A DNA stretch of 64,000 nt from Streptomyces resistomycificus (GTDB lineage Bacteria; Actinomycetota; Actinomycetes; Streptomycetales; Streptomycetaceae): assembly GCF_001514265.1 (NCBI RefSeq), contig NZ_KQ948989.1:753610-817609 (forward strand), written 5' to 3'. The position numbers and the translations under genes were made by a program. Below the pieces are notes generated by a model. The model did no database searches and had not been told where the DNA came from. It saw nothing but the letters and a program-made list of their open reading frames with translations. Position 1 is the first letter of the stretch. The number at the start of each line of letters is the position of its first letter. Of this stretch, positions 20,506 through 52,809 are shown in pieces.

Positions 20506-21944
20506 GCGAGCAGCACCTCCAAGAGGCGACCCCCAAACGGACCGTGCACGTCGACGCCGGAGACGAGGGCTACAGCAAGTCCCTGAAGTCCCGGCACGTC
20601 AACATGATCGCCATCGGCGGCGCGATCGGCACCGGGCTCTTCCTCGGCGCCGGCGGCCGCCTCGCCGAGGCCGGCCCGTCCCTGTTCATCGCCTACGCGG
20701 TCTGCGGCATCTTCGCCTTCCTCGTCGTGCGCGCCCTCGGCGAACTCGTCCTGTACCGGCCCTCGTCCGGCGCCTTCGTGTCGTACGCCCGCGAGTTCCT
20801 GGGCGAGAAGGGCGCGTACACCGCGGGCTGGATGTACTTCCTCAACTGGGCCACCACCGGCATCGCCGACATCACCGCGGTGGCCACGTACACCCACTAC
20901 TGGGGCATGTTCTCCGACATCCCGCAGTGGGTGATCGCGCTGATAGCCCTGGCCGTGGTCCTCACCGTGAACCTGATCTCGGTGAAGATCTTCGGCGAAC
21001 TGGAGTTCTGGTTCGCCATCGTCAAGGTCAGCGCGCTCGTGATCTTCATGTGTATCGGCATCTTCCTGCTGGTCACCCAGCACCCGGTGGACGGCGCCAC
21101 TCCCGGCCCTTCCCTGATCACCGACAATGGCGGCGTCTTCCCCAGCGGCCTGCTGCCCATGCTGCTGATCATCCAGGGCGTCGTCTTCGCCTACGCCTCC
21201 GTCGAGCTGGTCGGTGTCGCCGCCGGTGAGACCGAGAACCCCGAGAAGATCATGCCGAAGGCGATCAACTCGATCATGTGGCGGGTCGGCCTGTTCTACG
21301 TCGGCTCGGTGGTCCTGCTGTCGATGCTGCTGCCCTGGAACAGGTACACGGCCGGCGAGAGCCCCTTCGTGACGGTGCTGTCCAACATCGGCATCCCCGC
21401 GGCCGGCGGCGTGATGAACCTGGTCGTGCTGACCGCCGCCATGTCCTCGCTCAACTCCGGCCTGTACTCCACCGGCCGCATCCTGCGCTCCATGGCGATG
21501 TCCGGCTCCGCCCCGAAGTTCACCGGAGTGATGAGCCGCAGCCAGGTCCCCTACGGCGGCATCCTGCTCACCAGCGGTATCTGCGTGCTCGGCGTCGGCC
21601 TCAACTTCGTCGTGCCCGCCGACGCCTTCGAGATCGTGCTCAACTTCGCCGCGATCGGCATCCTCGCCACCTGGGGCATGATCATGATCTGCCACCTGAT
21701 GTTCTGGCAGAAGACCCAGAGGGGCGAACTCGACCGCCCCGGCTACCGGTTGCCGGGCTCCCCCTGGACCGAACTCGTGACGCTGGCCTTCCTCGCCTCC
21801 GTCCTGGTCCTCATGTACGCCGACGGCGGCGCCGGACGCACCACCGTGCTGTGCCTGCCGCTGATCGTCGGGGCGCTGGTCGCCGGATGGTTCGCCGTCC
21901 GCGGCCGTACGGCGCGCAAGTCCACCACCGGAGCCGACGCGTGA
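20502..21944 (+). CDS. ansP: L-asparagine permease-like amino-acid transporter
   Basis: 480 aa, APC superfamily AAT family: [20 protein letters not shown] in TM1 and [22 protein letters not shown] in TM6, twelve TM segments. Sequence style and position directly before an asparaginase point to asparagine; substrate is inferred from context. GTG start overlaps the regulator stop, and the stop overlaps the asparaginase GTG. Confidence 0.85.
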
Positions 21945-28960: not shown

Positions 28961-28999
28961 ACCCGTCGACGCCGGCGGCCCCACGACAGGAGAACCTCC

Positions 29000-35034: not shown

Positions 35035-35043
35035 GTGTTGGCC

Positions 35044-36438
35044 ATGGCTTTCCCCGTCGCTCTCCGCCGCTGCCAGGTGCTCGGTCTGGCCGGAACCGCC
35101 TCCCTAGCGGCGGGAGGTGAGACCGCCGGAGCCCTGCCCGTCCGGGAGCTCCTCGCCCCTTCGTCCGCCCACGCCGCCCTCGGTCTGGTCGGCGTGTACT
35201 TCGGACTCGTGCTGCTGATCGCGGCCTGGGCCCTGCTGGGCCGCCTGGTGCGTGGCCCCGAGCCGCCCACCCCGCGCGAGCTGCTGGTGGTCCTCGCGGT
35301 CTGGGCCGCACCGCTGCTGATCGCACCGCCGCTCTTCAGCCGGGACGTGTACAGCTACCTCGCCCAGGGCGCCATGGTGGACGCGCACATCGACGTCTAC
35401 GCACACGGGCCCGCCCAGCTCGGCGGCCCGCTCGCCGACGAGGTCTCCCCGCTGTGGCGGCACACCGCAGCGCCGTACGGCCCGGTCTTCCTCGGCGTCG
35501 CCTCCGCGCTGTCCGCACTGACCCGGGGCGAACTCCCCGCCGGCGTCTTCGGCATGCGGCTCGTCGCCGTGCTCGGCGTCGGCCTGATGGCGGCCGCGCT
35601 GCCCCGGCTGGCCCGCCACAGCGGCGCCGACCCGTCGGCCGCGCTGTGGCTCGGCGCGCTCAACCCGCTCGTCCTGCTCCACCTGGTGGCGGGCGCCCAC
35701 AACGACGCCGTCATGCTCGGCCTGCTCGGCCTCGGCCTGGTCGCGGCACTCGGCCGGTGGCCGGTCCTCGGCGCCGTGCTGGTCACGCTCGCAGCCCTGG
35801 TCAAGGCCCCTGCCGTGCTCGGGCTCGTCACGGTCGTCGCCCTCCAGGTGCGTGCGGGCCGTCATCCGGCGCGGGCGGTGGCGACCACCGCTGTCGCGAC
35901 CGCGGTCACCACCGTCGCCGCGACGACGGCCGCCGGCACGGGGTACGGCTGGACAGGCGCCCTCGACACTCCCGTCTCCCCGCAGAACTGGGCCCTCACC
36001 AGCCTCCTGGGCCGGGCCACCCGCGCCGTGCTGGTGCGGCTCGGCAGCGATCTGGCACCGTTGGCCGTACCCGCCTGGCACGCCCTGGGCATCGTGGCCG
36101 CCGCAGGCGTGGTCCTCGCGATATGGCTGCGGCTGCGCCTTCGGCCCGTGTACGCGCTCGGCCTGAGCCTGCTGGCGGTGGCAGCCCTCGGCCCGGCGAT
36201 CCGCCCCTGGTACGCCCTGTGGGGGCTGTTCCTCGTCGCCGCCGCCGCGCCCAGCACATCGGTTCGGCACCGGGTGGCGGCCGTGACCGGCGTGCTCGCG
36301 CTCCTCGCCCTGCCGAGCGGCGGCCCCGCGGATGCCGGACAACTCGTGACGGCCGTCTCCGGCGGTGTGCTGGCCCTGGTCTTCCTGTGGCAGGCCCACC
36401 AGGCGCGGCTCGCCACGATGTCGGGGCGTACGGCATGA
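35044..36438 (+). CDS. MptB-like polyprenol-phosphomannose alpha-1,6-mannosyltransferase
   Basis: 464-aa GT-C membrane protein with about 12 TM segments. PPLFSRDVYSYLAQG carries the expected catalytic Asp in the first outer loop, and LVAGAHNDAVMLGLLGLGL is typical of the MptA/MptB family, which extends lipomannan in mycobacteria. In Streptomyces the acceptor is unknown. ATG 35044 or GTG 35035; neither has a clear ribosome binding site. ATGA overlap with the next gene's original ATG at 36435. Confidence 0.78.
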   Translation: MAFPVALRRCQVLGLAGTASLAAGGETAGALPVRELLAPSSAHAALGLVGVYFGLVLLIAAWALLGRLVRGPEPPTPRELLVVLAVWAAPLLIAPPLFSRDVYSYLAQGAMVDAHIDVYAHGPAQLGGPLADEVSPLWRHTAAPYGPVFLGVASALSALTRGELPAGVFGMRLVAVLGVGLMAAALPRLARHSGADPSAALWLGALNPLVLLHLVAGAHNDAVMLGLLGLGLVAALGRWPVLGAVLVTLAALVKAPAVLGLVTVVALQVRAGRHPARAVATTAVATAVTTVAATTAAGTGYGWTGALDTPVSPQNWALTSLLGRATRAVLVRLGSDLAPLAVPAWHALGIVAAAGVVLAIWLRLRLRPVYALGLSLLAVAALGPAIRPWYALWGLFLVAAAAPSTSVRHRVAAVTGVLALLALPSGGPADAGQLVTAVSGGVLALVFLWQAHQARLATMSGRTA

Positions 36439-36515
36439 GGCCGCCGCGCTCCGAGTGAGGGCGGCTGCTGCTCGCCCTCGCCCTCGTCGCCGCCGTCACC
36501 GCGTTCACGGCGACC

Positions 36516-37838
36516 GTGCCTCTGCTGCGTGACTGGTTCGACCTGCGCGTCTACCACGGAGCGGTGGACAGTTGGGTCCACCACGGCGGACGGCTCTACG
36601 ACTACCGGGTGCCCGGGACGACGTACGGCTTCACCTATCCGCCCTTCGCCGCGCTCGCCATGCTGCCGATGTCCCTGCTCGGCCTGCGCGCCACGATAGT
36701 GGTCGCCCTGCTGCTCGACCTGGTGGCCCTGGCCGCGGTGCTGCGCATCCTCGTGGGGCCCGGCTGGCGGGGCCACGGCTGGTACGGCTGCGTCCTGGGC
36801 GCCTGTGCGCTCGCGCTGTTCGAACCGCTGCGGGACACCTTCAGTTTCGGCCAGGTCAACATCCTGCTGCTGGCCCTGGTGCTCGCGGACGCGTGGCTGC
36901 TGGCCAACGGCCGGGCGCGGTGGGCGGGCGTCGGGATCGGGATCGCGGCCGCGGTGAAACTCACGCCGGCGCTCTTCATCGGTCTGCTGCTCCTCGCCCG
37001 GCGGTGGCGGGCCGCCGCCGTGGCGAGCGCGGTCACCGCCGCGGCCACCGCGCTCGCGGCCCGGGCGGCTCCCGATGCCTCGCGCTTCTACTGGACCGAG
37101 GCACTGTGGGACACGAACCGCGTGGGGCGACTGGACTATGTCTCCAACCAGTCGCTGCAGGGGATCCTGGCCCGGCTGGGCGTGGCGGACCGGCCGGTGT
37201 GGGCCGTGGCGGTCCTGCTGACCCTGTGCGTGTGGGCGTTCCGTACCCGCAGGGCGGTCGTGGCGGGGGAGTGGACGACCGCCTTCGCACTCACCGCTCT
37301 GACCGCCTGTCTCGTCAGCCCGATCACCTGGGTGCACCACCTGGTGTGGCTGCTGCCGTCCTTCGCCGTGCTGGTGCGTACAGGGCACCCGCGCATCGCG
37401 GGCGCCCTGTACGCGGTGCTGTGCACCAGCGTGGTGTGGCTGTGGTTCGACGACGCGTCAGGCGTCGACGGATTCCTCGGCGGCAACACCTACACCTGGA
37501 TCACACTCGGCCTGCTGCTGTGGCTGCCGGCCGGTCAACTCCCGGCCGAGCGTGCGCGCTTGCGCCGCACCGCCACGGCGAGGGCACCGGCGCCCAGCCC
37601 AGCGGCTCCCGCGATCACCCCCGTCGCCGGCCACGCGGCACCGCCCTCGGGCGGCTTCGGCGCGACGGCAGCGGGCACAGCGGCCGGTTGGGCCGCGGGT
37701 CCGGCGGCGGGCCGCGCGGCCGGCCTGACCCGCGGCGCCTCCAGCGAGCCCACCGGTTCGACCCGCCCGTCCGCGTCGAACCCCCAGTCGAGCAGTTCGC
37801 GCGCCTCCTCGTACACGGCGAAGCCACCGCCCGCCTGA
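36516..37838 (+). CDS. GT87 (DUF2029) mannosyltransferase with an in-frame TGA near its start
   Basis: GT-C membrane protein; RDWFDLRVYHGAVDSWVHHG, YGFTYPPFAALAMLP and SFGQVNILLLALVLADAW are the GT87 pattern (PimE-like). The natural start appears to be ATG 36435, overlapping the preceding stop, but codon 8 is TGA (36456-36458). The frame then continues with the hydrophobic LLLALALVAAVTAFTATV, the expected first TM helix. The first usual start after the TGA is GTG 36516, which would drop most of that helix. The C-terminal 100 residues are Ala/Pro/Ser-rich and lie antisense to the carboxypeptidase gene. Possibly a pseudogene or a sequence error. Confidence 0.65.
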   Translation: MPLLRDWFDLRVYHGAVDSWVHHGGRLYDYRVPGTTYGFTYPPFAALAMLPMSLLGLRATIVVALLLDLVALAAVLRILVGPGWRGHGWYGCVLGACALALFEPLRDTFSFGQVNILLLALVLADAWLLANGRARWAGVGIGIAAAVKLTPALFIGLLLLARRWRAAAVASAVTAAATALAARAAPDASRFYWTEALWDTNRVGRLDYVSNQSLQGILARLGVADRPVWAVAVLLTLCVWAFRTRRAVVAGEWTTAFALTALTACLVSPITWVHHLVWLLPSFAVLVRTGHPRIAGALYAVLCTSVVWLWFDDASGVDGFLGGNTYTWITLGLLLWLPAGQLPAERARLRRTATARAPAPSPAAPAITPVAGHAAPPSGGFGATAAGTAAGWAAGPAAGRAAGLTRGASSEPTGSTRPSASNPQSSSSRASSYTAKPPPA

Positions 37839-38734
37839 GGGTTCATCACCGTCACGACGAGGGTGCGGCCGTCCCGCCGGGCGGCGGTCACGAGGGTGTG
37901 GCCGGCCTTGCTGGTGTATCCGTTCTTGATGCCGACCAGCCCCGGGTAGGGCTCCACGCCGTCGTCACCCGAAAGCAGCCGGTTGGTGTTGCGGATCTCG
38001 TACGACCCACCGTCGCGGCCCGGGAAGTCCGCCTGGACCGTGCCGCAGTACCGCGCGAAGTCCGCACTGCGCAGCCCCGCCCGGCCGAACACGGCAAGGT
38101 CGTAGGCCGACGACACCTGGCCCGGTGTGTCGTAGCCGTCCGGTGACAGCACGCGGGTGTCGCGGGCCCCCAGGGAGCGGGCCTTGGCCTGCATGCGCGC
38201 GGCGGTCGAGCGCCAGCCGCCGCTCAGCTCGGCCAGCACGTGCACGGCGTCGTTGCCGGAGTTGAGGAACACCCCGCGCCACAGGTCGGAGACGCGGTAC
38301 GTACGCCCTTCGGCGACCCCGACCAGGCTGCTGCCGGCACCGATGCCGGCGAGCTCCTCCTCCCGGACGGTGTGGCGGATGCCGCCCGGCAGGACCGGCA
38401 GGACCGTCAGGGCGAACAGGGTCTTGAGGGTGCTGGCGGGCGGCAGTTCGCGGTGCGCGTTGTGCGCGGCGAGCACCTCCCCGCTGTCGGCGTCGGCCAC
38501 CAGCCACGACAGCGCCGAGACCTCCGGCACCTCGGGAGCGCCGGCACGCGGCCGTACCTGGGTGCCCGAGCGATACAGGAGGGAGGGCTGGGGTGCCGCC
38601 GCCCTCGGCCCACCGTGCGTACCAGGGTCCGCTCCGCCGCCGCCGGCCACGGCGGCCGGTGCGAGGGCGAGCAGGCCCGCCGCACACATCGCGCAGGTGG
38701 ACACGACAGCCCGGGAAGTCAATCCGATTGTCAT
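37535..38734 (-). CDS. D-alanyl-D-alanine carboxypeptidase (PBP, S11 family)
   Basis: 399 aa. Signal peptide (1 to about 30), then the S11 domain with S101-T-L-K104 (SxxK), S159-G-N161 (SxN) and KNGYTSKAG near 240 (KxG). A Pro/Ala-rich linker leads to a C-terminal TM helix ending in RRKRARSAGS, so it is anchored outside the membrane. Trims the terminal D-Ala of peptidoglycan pentapeptides. The C-terminal third of the gene is overlapped by the convergent glycosyltransferase frame. Confidence 0.9.
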   Translation of the reverse strand: MTIGLTSRAVVSTCAMCAAGLLALAPAAVAGGGGADPGTHGGPRAAAPQPSLLYRSGTQVRPRAGAPEVPEVSALSWLVADADSGEVLAAHNAHRELPPASTLKTLFALTVLPVLPGGIRHTVREEELAGIGAGSSLVGVAEGRTYRVSDLWRGVFLNSGNDAVHVLAELSGGWRSTAARMQAKARSLGARDTRVLSPDGYDTPGQVSSAYDLAVFGRAGLRSADFARYCGTVQADFPGRDGGSYEIRNTNRLLSGDDGVEPYPGLVGIKNGYTSKAGHTLVTAARRDGRTLVVTVMNPQAGGGFAVYEEARELLDWGFDADGRVEPVGSLEAPRVRPAARPAAGPAAQPAAVPAAVAPKPPEGGAAWPATGVIAGAAGLGAGALAVAVRRKRARSAGS

Positions 38735-50518: not shown

Positions 50519-52609
50519 TCAGTCGGGTGTCTGCACGCGGGCGATGAGCAGGGCCACGTCGTCGGAGTTGTCGGGCTGGTGCAGGGTGCGCAGCAGAAGG
50601 TCGCAGACCTCCTCCAGAGGCCGGTCGGGACCGTCGAGCAGGGCCAGCAGGGCGTCCAGACGCTCGTCCAGCGGGTGCTGCCGGGTCTCGACGAGCCCGT
50701 CGGTGTAGAGCACCAGCCGGTCGCCGGGCTCCAGATCGACGGTGGTGGTGGAGAACGCGACACCCCCCACGCCCAGCGGCGCCCCGGTGGGCAGTTCGAG
50801 CAGCTCCGGCGGACGGCCGGGACGCAGCCGGGCGGGCGGGAGGTGTCCGGCGTTGGCGATCCGGCACTGCCGCGTCTCCGGGTCGTGGACCACGTACACA
50901 CAGGTCGCGATCGAGTGATCGAGGCCCTCGGTGATCCGGTCGAGGTGCTCCAGGAGCCGGGCCGGGTCGAGGTCGAGGGAGGCCAGGGTGTTCGTCGCGG
51001 TACGCAGCCGGCCCATCGTGGCCGCCGCGTTGAGGCCGCTGCCCATCACGTCGCCCACCACGAGCGCGGTCTTTCCGCCGTCCAGCGGGATCACGTCGAA
51101 CCAGTCGCCGCCGACCTCGGCGGTGGCGCCCGCGGGCTGGTAGCGCGAGGCGACCTCCAGGCCGCCCGTCACGGGCGGATGGCTCGGCAGCAGGCTGCGC
51201 TGGAGGGTGACCGCGGTGTCACGGGCGTTCTGGTACCAGCGCGCGTTGTCGATTTGCACGGCCGCGCGGGACGCCAGCTCGCGGGCGAGCAGCAGGTCGT
51301 CCTCGGTGAACGGCAGCGGGTTGCGGGTCCGCTTGAGGTCGAGGGCGCCGAGCACCTCGCCGCGCGCGATCAGAGGGACCGCCAGATAGGAGTGCACCCC
51401 GGCCCGGGTGAGCAGCTCCACCGCCTCGGGGGAGCGGGCGATGCGGGGCAGGTCCGCGGCCTCGACGTGCGCCACCAGGACCGGCCGGCCGGAGCGCACG
51501 CACTCGGTGACGAGGCGGTCGGGAGCGTAACTGGCCACCTCGCCGGGCGGGTCGGCGGCACGGAGGGCGTCAGGGGCGTGGTCCGCCTGCACGGCCAGCG
51601 CCCGGATGACGGCCGCCTCGGCGGGGCCGAGGGTGCTGGGCCTGCCCTGCACCACCGCCTCCAGCAGATCCACGGCCGCGATGTCGGCGAGGGCGGGCAC
51701 GGCGACCTCGGCCAGCTCCCGGGCGGTGCGGTCCAGGTCCAGGGTGGTGCCGATCCGGGCGGAGGCGTCGGCGACCAGCGCCAGGTGCCGCCGGGCGCCC
51801 TCGGCCTCGACGGCCGCCCGGTGCTGCTCGGTGACGTCGACGATCGAGCAGGCCACGCCCAGTACGTTGCCCAGCGCGTCCTCCAGCCGGTAGAGCGAGA
51901 CCGACCAGGCGTGCTCCTGGTGCGGATCGGCCGGGGTGCGGCCCATGGTCTTCTGGTCGATGAGCGGCTGCCCGGTCTCCAGCACCCGGCGCGCCGCCGA
52001 CTCGACGGCGTCGGCGTCGACGTCCGGCAGGACCTCGACGATCCTGCGCCCGATGTGCTCCTCGGCCGGAACGCCGTTGAGCCGCTCCAGCGCCGGGTTG
52101 ACGGAGACGTACCGCAGGTCGGTGTCGAACACGGCCAGCCCGATCGGGGACTGTGCGACCATTCGCGTGGCCAACGCCACGTCCCGCTCCAGCCGGCGCA
52201 CCGTCGACTGGTCCGCGGCGAGGCCCAGGGCGAAGGTGTCGCCCCGGGCGTCGAGCAGCCGCATGTTGCGGAACTCCACGAGCTTGGTGGTGCCGTCCTT
52301 GTGGCGGACGGGGAACGCGCCGGCCCAGCCCTCGCCGGTCTCCATGACGTCGGCGAACAGCTTGACCACCAGGTCGGCATTTTGTTCGTGGATCATCAGA
52401 TGGGCCGCGTACCGCCCGAGGGCCTCCTGCGCCGGGTAGCCGAACAGCTCCTCGGCCTGCGGGCTCCAGAAGACGATCCGGCCCTCGTTGTCCAGGACGA
52501 TCGAGGCCACGCCGAGCACGTCGAGCAGCCCGCTCGGCTGCACCGGTCCACGCACCGGCCCGCCGGCGGGGCCGCTCGGCCATGTCCGCCGCTCGTCGTC
52601 TTCGGTCAC
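50519..52609 (-). CDS. PAS-PAS-GAF-SpoIIE phosphatase
   Basis: 696 aa signalling protein. PAS 1 at about 28-150 (IVLDNEGRIVFWSPQAEELF), PAS 2 at about 160-265 (GLAVFDTDLRYVSVNPALER), GAF at about 280-450, then PP2C/SpoIIE phosphatase at about 475-690 with EVGGDWFDVIPLDGG and VVGDVMGSGLNAAATM (metal Asp residues). No kinase domain and no TM. Such proteins dephosphorylate anti-sigma antagonists; partners are not next to it. Confidence 0.9.
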   Translation of the reverse strand: MTEDDERRTWPSGPAGGPVRGPVQPSGLLDVLGVASIVLDNEGRIVFWSPQAEELFGYPAQEALGRYAAHLMIHEQNADLVVKLFADVMETGEGWAGAFPVRHKDGTTKLVEFRNMRLLDARGDTFALGLAADQSTVRRLERDVALATRMVAQSPIGLAVFDTDLRYVSVNPALERLNGVPAEEHIGRRIVEVLPDVDADAVESAARRVLETGQPLIDQKTMGRTPADPHQEHAWSVSLYRLEDALGNVLGVACSIVDVTEQHRAAVEAEGARRHLALVADASARIGTTLDLDRTARELAEVAVPALADIAAVDLLEAVVQGRPSTLGPAEAAVIRALAVQADHAPDALRAADPPGEVASYAPDRLVTECVRSGRPVLVAHVEAADLPRIARSPEAVELLTRAGVHSYLAVPLIARGEVLGALDLKRTRNPLPFTEDDLLLARELASRAAVQIDNARWYQNARDTAVTLQRSLLPSHPPVTGGLEVASRYQPAGATAEVGGDWFDVIPLDGGKTALVVGDVMGSGLNAAATMGRLRTATNTLASLDLDPARLLEHLDRITEGLDHSIATCVYVVHDPETRQCRIANAGHLPPARLRPGRPPELLELPTGAPLGVGGVAFSTTTVDLEPGDRLVLYTDGLVETRQHPLDERLDALLALLDGPDRPLEEVCDLLLRTLHQPDNSDDVALLIARVQTPD

Positions 52610-52809
52610 CGGACTCTCCCGGCTGCACTCATGTCACGCACCGCCTTCGACCGTACCCGCGGCACGCCGTTCCCCCGTGCCGACTTCCCTGTTCTACCGC
52701 GCCCAGCCGTCTCCGCGACGCCTCCCGCCGCATCTTCCACCATCCCTTGACGCGGCGGCTGCCATCCGGAGAAGCCGCGACACGGGGTCGTGACCGGGCA
52801 GACGTCCCC

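Follow-up and report, generated by a model that had tools for sequence, protein, structure and literature searches.

A private in-frame TGA at codon 8 of a GT87 mannosyltransferase gene in Streptomyces resistomycificus: recent silencing or a displaced start?

We analysed a 64,000-nucleotide stretch of Streptomyces resistomycificus DNA (the window; positions 753,610-817,609 of contig C2 in a 35-contig draft genome of 9.18 Mb) that contains a GT87 gene interrupted close to its start. The gene lies on the forward strand directly behind an MptB/MptA-like polyprenol-phosphomannose mannosyltransferase gene (35035..36438, forward strand), which scores 175.9 bits against the NCBIfam MptB model NF038066 (cut-off 40) and aligns without stops to two relatives, G140 and G124. 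The ATG of the GT87 gene (36435-36437) forms an ATGA overlap with the TGA (36436-36438) that ends this upstream gene. As the start of one gene overlaps the stop of the other, the two are probably translationally coupled. A convergent gene for an S11 D-Ala-D-Ala carboxypeptidase, itself open, occupies 37535..38734 on the reverse strand.

The part of the GT87 gene that follows the interruption (36459..37838, forward strand) scored 183 bits against PF09594 (GT87; cut-off 25), matching the full profile with an E-value of 9.8e-54. In a phmmer alignment to mycobacterial PimE (PDB 9dm5), query residues 5-307 were matched (E 2.6e-23), including the region of the catalytic Asp. By this sequence alignment only, D28 of the query (codon 36, 36540..36542, forward strand) corresponds to the catalytic D58 of PimE, the Asp in the first external loop after helix 1. 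The predicted product is a PimE-related mannosyltransferase of the GT-C type and of family GT87. The two share the GT87 type, and PimE is a polyprenyl-phosphomannose-dependent alpha-1,2-mannosyltransferase (PMC12041525). By contrast, the Streptomyces gene adjoins an MptB-like gene, carries a stop at codon 8 and stays far below the cut-off of the NCBIfam PimE-type mannosyltransferase equivalog NF009915 (145.2 against 413 bits). For S. coelicolor, PMC5882110 says of a distant PimE homologue no more than that it might use polyprenol phosphate mannose. A predicted structure (mean pLDDT 55) placed a helix at residues 2-22, with block pLDDT values of 43, 36 and 31 there, and was too weak for use.

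Read from the ATG at 36435, the frame encodes MRPPRSE, meets a TGA at codon 8 (36456-36458, forward strand) and then runs open for 459 codons up to a TGA at 37836-37838. Both the TGA within the GT87 frame and the overlap of the start with the previous stop, as originally described, were confirmed from the sequence. The frame past the TGA is coding, as the Pfam match to the post-stop part shows. The first in-frame GTG past the TGA is at 36516..36518 (forward strand), and a start at this codon would lose helix 1. No ATG, GTG or TTG was found in frame between the TGA and this GTG. Past the TGA, two in-frame CTG codons, at 36465 and 36468 (36465..36470, forward strand), may allow weak re-initiation with helix 1 retained. 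The original prediction overlooked these two CTG codons as well as a cluster of private changes around the stop.

Orthologs were collected from genus draws of 150 and 392 genomes, together with 61 relatives and a scan of genome contigs from which the best 80 of 489 were taken, all 80 titled Streptomyces; the search for closer relatives took in a further draw of 326 genomes, the later draws largely repeating the earlier. Codon 8 was compared across 158 loci at E <= 1e-60, and removal of 44 loci of identical sequence left 114 distinct ones, of which the window is one. A stop at codon 8 occurs in the window and in none of the others, nor does any other of the 114 have a stop in frame in the 40 codons that precede the aligned Gly next to codon 8. 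The remaining 113 loci carry Arg at codon 8 in 103 cases, Gly in 4, Ala in 2, Leu in 2, Pro in 1 and Lys in 1; for protein matches that start late, codon 8 was extrapolated without gaps, which may have put a few of the rare residues in the wrong place. The counts agree with the expectation that homologues would carry Trp, Arg or Gly at this codon, with Arg in 103/113, Gly in 4/113 and Trp in none.

Among 110 loci with 70% identity or more, the window included, 68 have a start-stop overlap at the same position (ATGA in 62, GTGA in 6), and ATG 36435 is therefore taken as the conserved start; GTG 36516 is an internal codon in 93 of the 110. These alignments show a conserved start position together with a stop that, of all loci compared, only this lineage carries. 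Our searches turned up no genome of the same species, and in the set used for the analysis of private changes the nearest relative with the same N-terminal length stands at a DNA distance of 12% (about 88% identical). The length of the N-terminus before helix 1 appears to vary: across the 110 loci, the nearest in-frame NTGA overlap, a putative start, is found between 5 and 35 codons ahead of the aligned Gly.

The stop does not stand by itself. At codons 6-8 (36450-36458, forward strand) the window reads Ser-Glu-stop in place of the Thr-Asp-Arg of nearly all relatives of the same N-terminal length (n=62; Thr in 62, Asp in 58 and Arg in 59), and four of the nine bases are private to the window. 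In the other 62 loci, these three codons hold no private change in 51, one in 10 and two in one. This is the densest private cluster in the gene, as 2 of 365 windows of 12 nt reach four changes, both of them here, and none goes higher. Ranked simply by divergence from 15 near relatives, codons 6-9 come third among 365 windows, after codons 107-110 and the overlapping window at codons 5-8. Against the 22 private changes in 1080 post-stop bases, the cluster gave a Fisher p of 3e-5 for a region that was chosen after being seen. Codons 2-5 are still like those of the relatives. The cluster argues against a lone miscalled base, and it would fit a multi-base mutation, change that came after the stop, or an N-terminus that has ceased to be coding. 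We also asked whether the pattern had been copied from a nearly identical sequence in another part of the window, and rejected this because it matched nowhere but at its own place with up to 3 mismatches allowed.

We then compared constraint past the stop over 360 gap-free codons, using only pairs with dS above 0.3. The mean dN/dS between the window and its 40 nearest relatives was 0.23 (rank 12 of 41), against 0.206-0.307 (median 0.243) for the other relatives. One substitution in the window, G288A, falls at a column that does not otherwise vary among 99 proteins; by the same count, 77 of the 99 have none, 19 have one and 3 have two or more. Private changes past the stop comprise 13 silent and 9 nonsynonymous ones, a nonsynonymous fraction of 0.41 versus a median of 0.57 in comparable relatives, that is, those with at least 10 private changes (32 pooled, Fisher p 0.19). 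Neither dN/dS nor the private-change fraction detected relaxed selection after the stop, and a very recent event would show none either. Because dN/dS is ordinary and private amino-acid changes are not in excess, the gene bears no sign of decay, which means that the loss is recent, that the protein is still made, or that the base is wrong.

The last of these readings, that the gene is intact and the TGA an error of sequencing or assembly, is unlikely in our judgement. The genome is a 35-contig draft and the rest of the gene is open and constrained, as an error would leave it. The site, however, lies well inside the large contig C2, and the four clustered private substitutions would all need to be errors. 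Nor was another broken frame found where one or both of the relatives G140 and G124 cover the window. In that scan, stop-to-stop open reading frames of the two genomes were compared with the window (110 composition-filtered queries, 72 with a hit), and rows of at least 55% identity and at least 50 residues covered 42,686 of the 64,000 bases; the GT87 gene is absent from these rows. Of the candidates raised by the scan, the split near 28,965 separates two adjacent genes, the stops near 52,636 lie upstream of a start at 52,609, and the one at 21,553 lies antisense to a gene for an amino-acid permease. The other listed stops, judged by position alone, fall at the N-terminal or C-terminal edge of queries that are over-long, precede a listed start, or are antisense to another row. 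It is far less probable still that the TGA is read through or recoded by selenocysteine, a suppressor tRNA or programmed readthrough. The open frame past the TGA is what recoding would need, but no tRNA-Sec in the genome scored above the cut-off, and the stop is not shared by any of the 113 other ortholog loci, which mostly have Arg. On these two grounds recoding is held to be unlikely. Six tRNA-Sec matches lay below the cut-off, the best at 45.8 against 47 bits, and the two that were examined are a tRNA-Ser and a tRNA-Trp(CCA).

A protein that is still made could have a displaced start. As a start codon GTG is normal in bacteria, and the one at 36516 is the first past the TGA, but we consider it scarcely credible that the working protein is the short form beginning there. 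Such a start deletes helix 1, lowering the best 19-residue hydropathy near the N-terminus from 2.18 to 0.15, and leaves only eight residues before the predicted catalytic Asp. The 22 bases upstream of the GTG hold no Shine-Dalgarno (SD) sequence evident by eye, and most orthologs retain the upstream start overlap. PimE activity is abolished by D58A and by D58N (PMC12041525); given this, the missing helix and the few residues before the D58 equivalent, a protein started at the GTG is unlikely to function. The CTG codons offer a more credible restart, possible though not what we expect. Ribosomes from the upstream gene and from the seven-codon mini-ORF would re-initiate at 36465 or 36468, yielding a working protein minus its first 10-11 residues. 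Helix 1 would be kept (best hydropathy unchanged at 2.18), and codons 6-8 are altered at otherwise nearly invariant positions, as though non-coding, while the rest of the gene is constrained. The changed stretch is also purine-rich, with a predicted anti-SD pairing energy of -8.3 kcal/mol (rank 5 of 63), where the 62 relatives have a median of -2.35. The SD-like site is nevertheless weak evidence and was rejected as proof of a restart, since pairing this strong is reached by 9.3% of the gene's 20-nt windows. Codons 2-5, moreover, still resemble those of relatives, which speaks against a moved start, and CUG is a poor start codon, with E. coli initiation complexes less stable than on AUG, GUG or UUG (PMC11497404). 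With a shade less credence again, we suggest as a specific scenario that the old N-terminus has become a seven-codon leader mini-ORF overlapping the preceding gene, with GT87 translation arising by CTG re-initiation beside the newly formed purine-rich site, a relocation of the start in one lineage. Re-initiation after early nonsense codons is classically known from lacI. The resemblance lies in a stop very close to the start and in possible downstream restarts; the difference is that only CTG codons are suitably placed here and that the restart is a candidate from sequence alone.

With moderate confidence, we favour a recent, real nonsense mutation that silenced an accessory mannosyltransferase gene, an ordinary event in bacteria. 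The assembly contains the TGA, and no other locus compared has it; its reality in the strain, its recent date and the absence of enzyme are what we infer. Ribosomes starting at the conserved ATG would halt after seven residues, little or no functional enzyme would be produced, and the gene would stand at the start of decay. Such silencing is suggested by the conserved start position, by a stop in the window alone among 114 loci and by Arg in 59 of the 62 same-length relatives. It is also consistent with the lack of a usual start codon before GTG 36516, whose use would cost helix 1, and with an open, ordinarily constrained downstream frame, as expected for a recent loss. On the other side, the ordinary dN/dS and the lack of an excess of private changes would be equally expected if the protein were still made, and four changes in nine bases are more than one fresh point mutation, hinting at older local change or a shifted start. 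Loss of the gene is plausibly tolerable, because its distribution in the genus is patchy (a DNA match at E <= 1e-60 in 145 of 392 genomes) and the genome also holds three further GT87 genes that exceed the Pfam cut-off. An early nonsense codon in an otherwise open frame is an ordinary kind of bacterial pseudogene. The present gene is like others of that kind in its single in-frame stop, its open remainder and its patchy distribution with paralogues, and differs in the extra private changes beside the stop and in a loss of expression that is so far presumed. Among the options originally offered, new disruption is thus the best supported, while the later start at the GTG, with helix 1 lost and the catalytic Asp so near the N-terminus, fared poorly. 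The consequence is mostly one of annotation: the gene should be marked as probably disrupted, and not as a shorter enzyme starting at GTG 36516. Were the CTG restart true, it would be a small case of a start codon moving after an early stop.

At its other end, the GT87 frame meets no stop of its own before a 304-nt antisense run (37535-37838) through the convergent carboxypeptidase gene. Such a tail-to-tail overlap was seen in all 109 of the 114 distinct ortholog loci in which the carboxypeptidase was found, with a median of 277 nt. In the 15 loci listed, the carboxypeptidase stop falls at one fixed place, the GT87 codons for GQ, and this GQ is invariant in 23 aligned GT87 proteins. The first 20 tail residues beyond the GQ point are poorly conserved in five relatives, and for this reason the antisense tail looks incidental.
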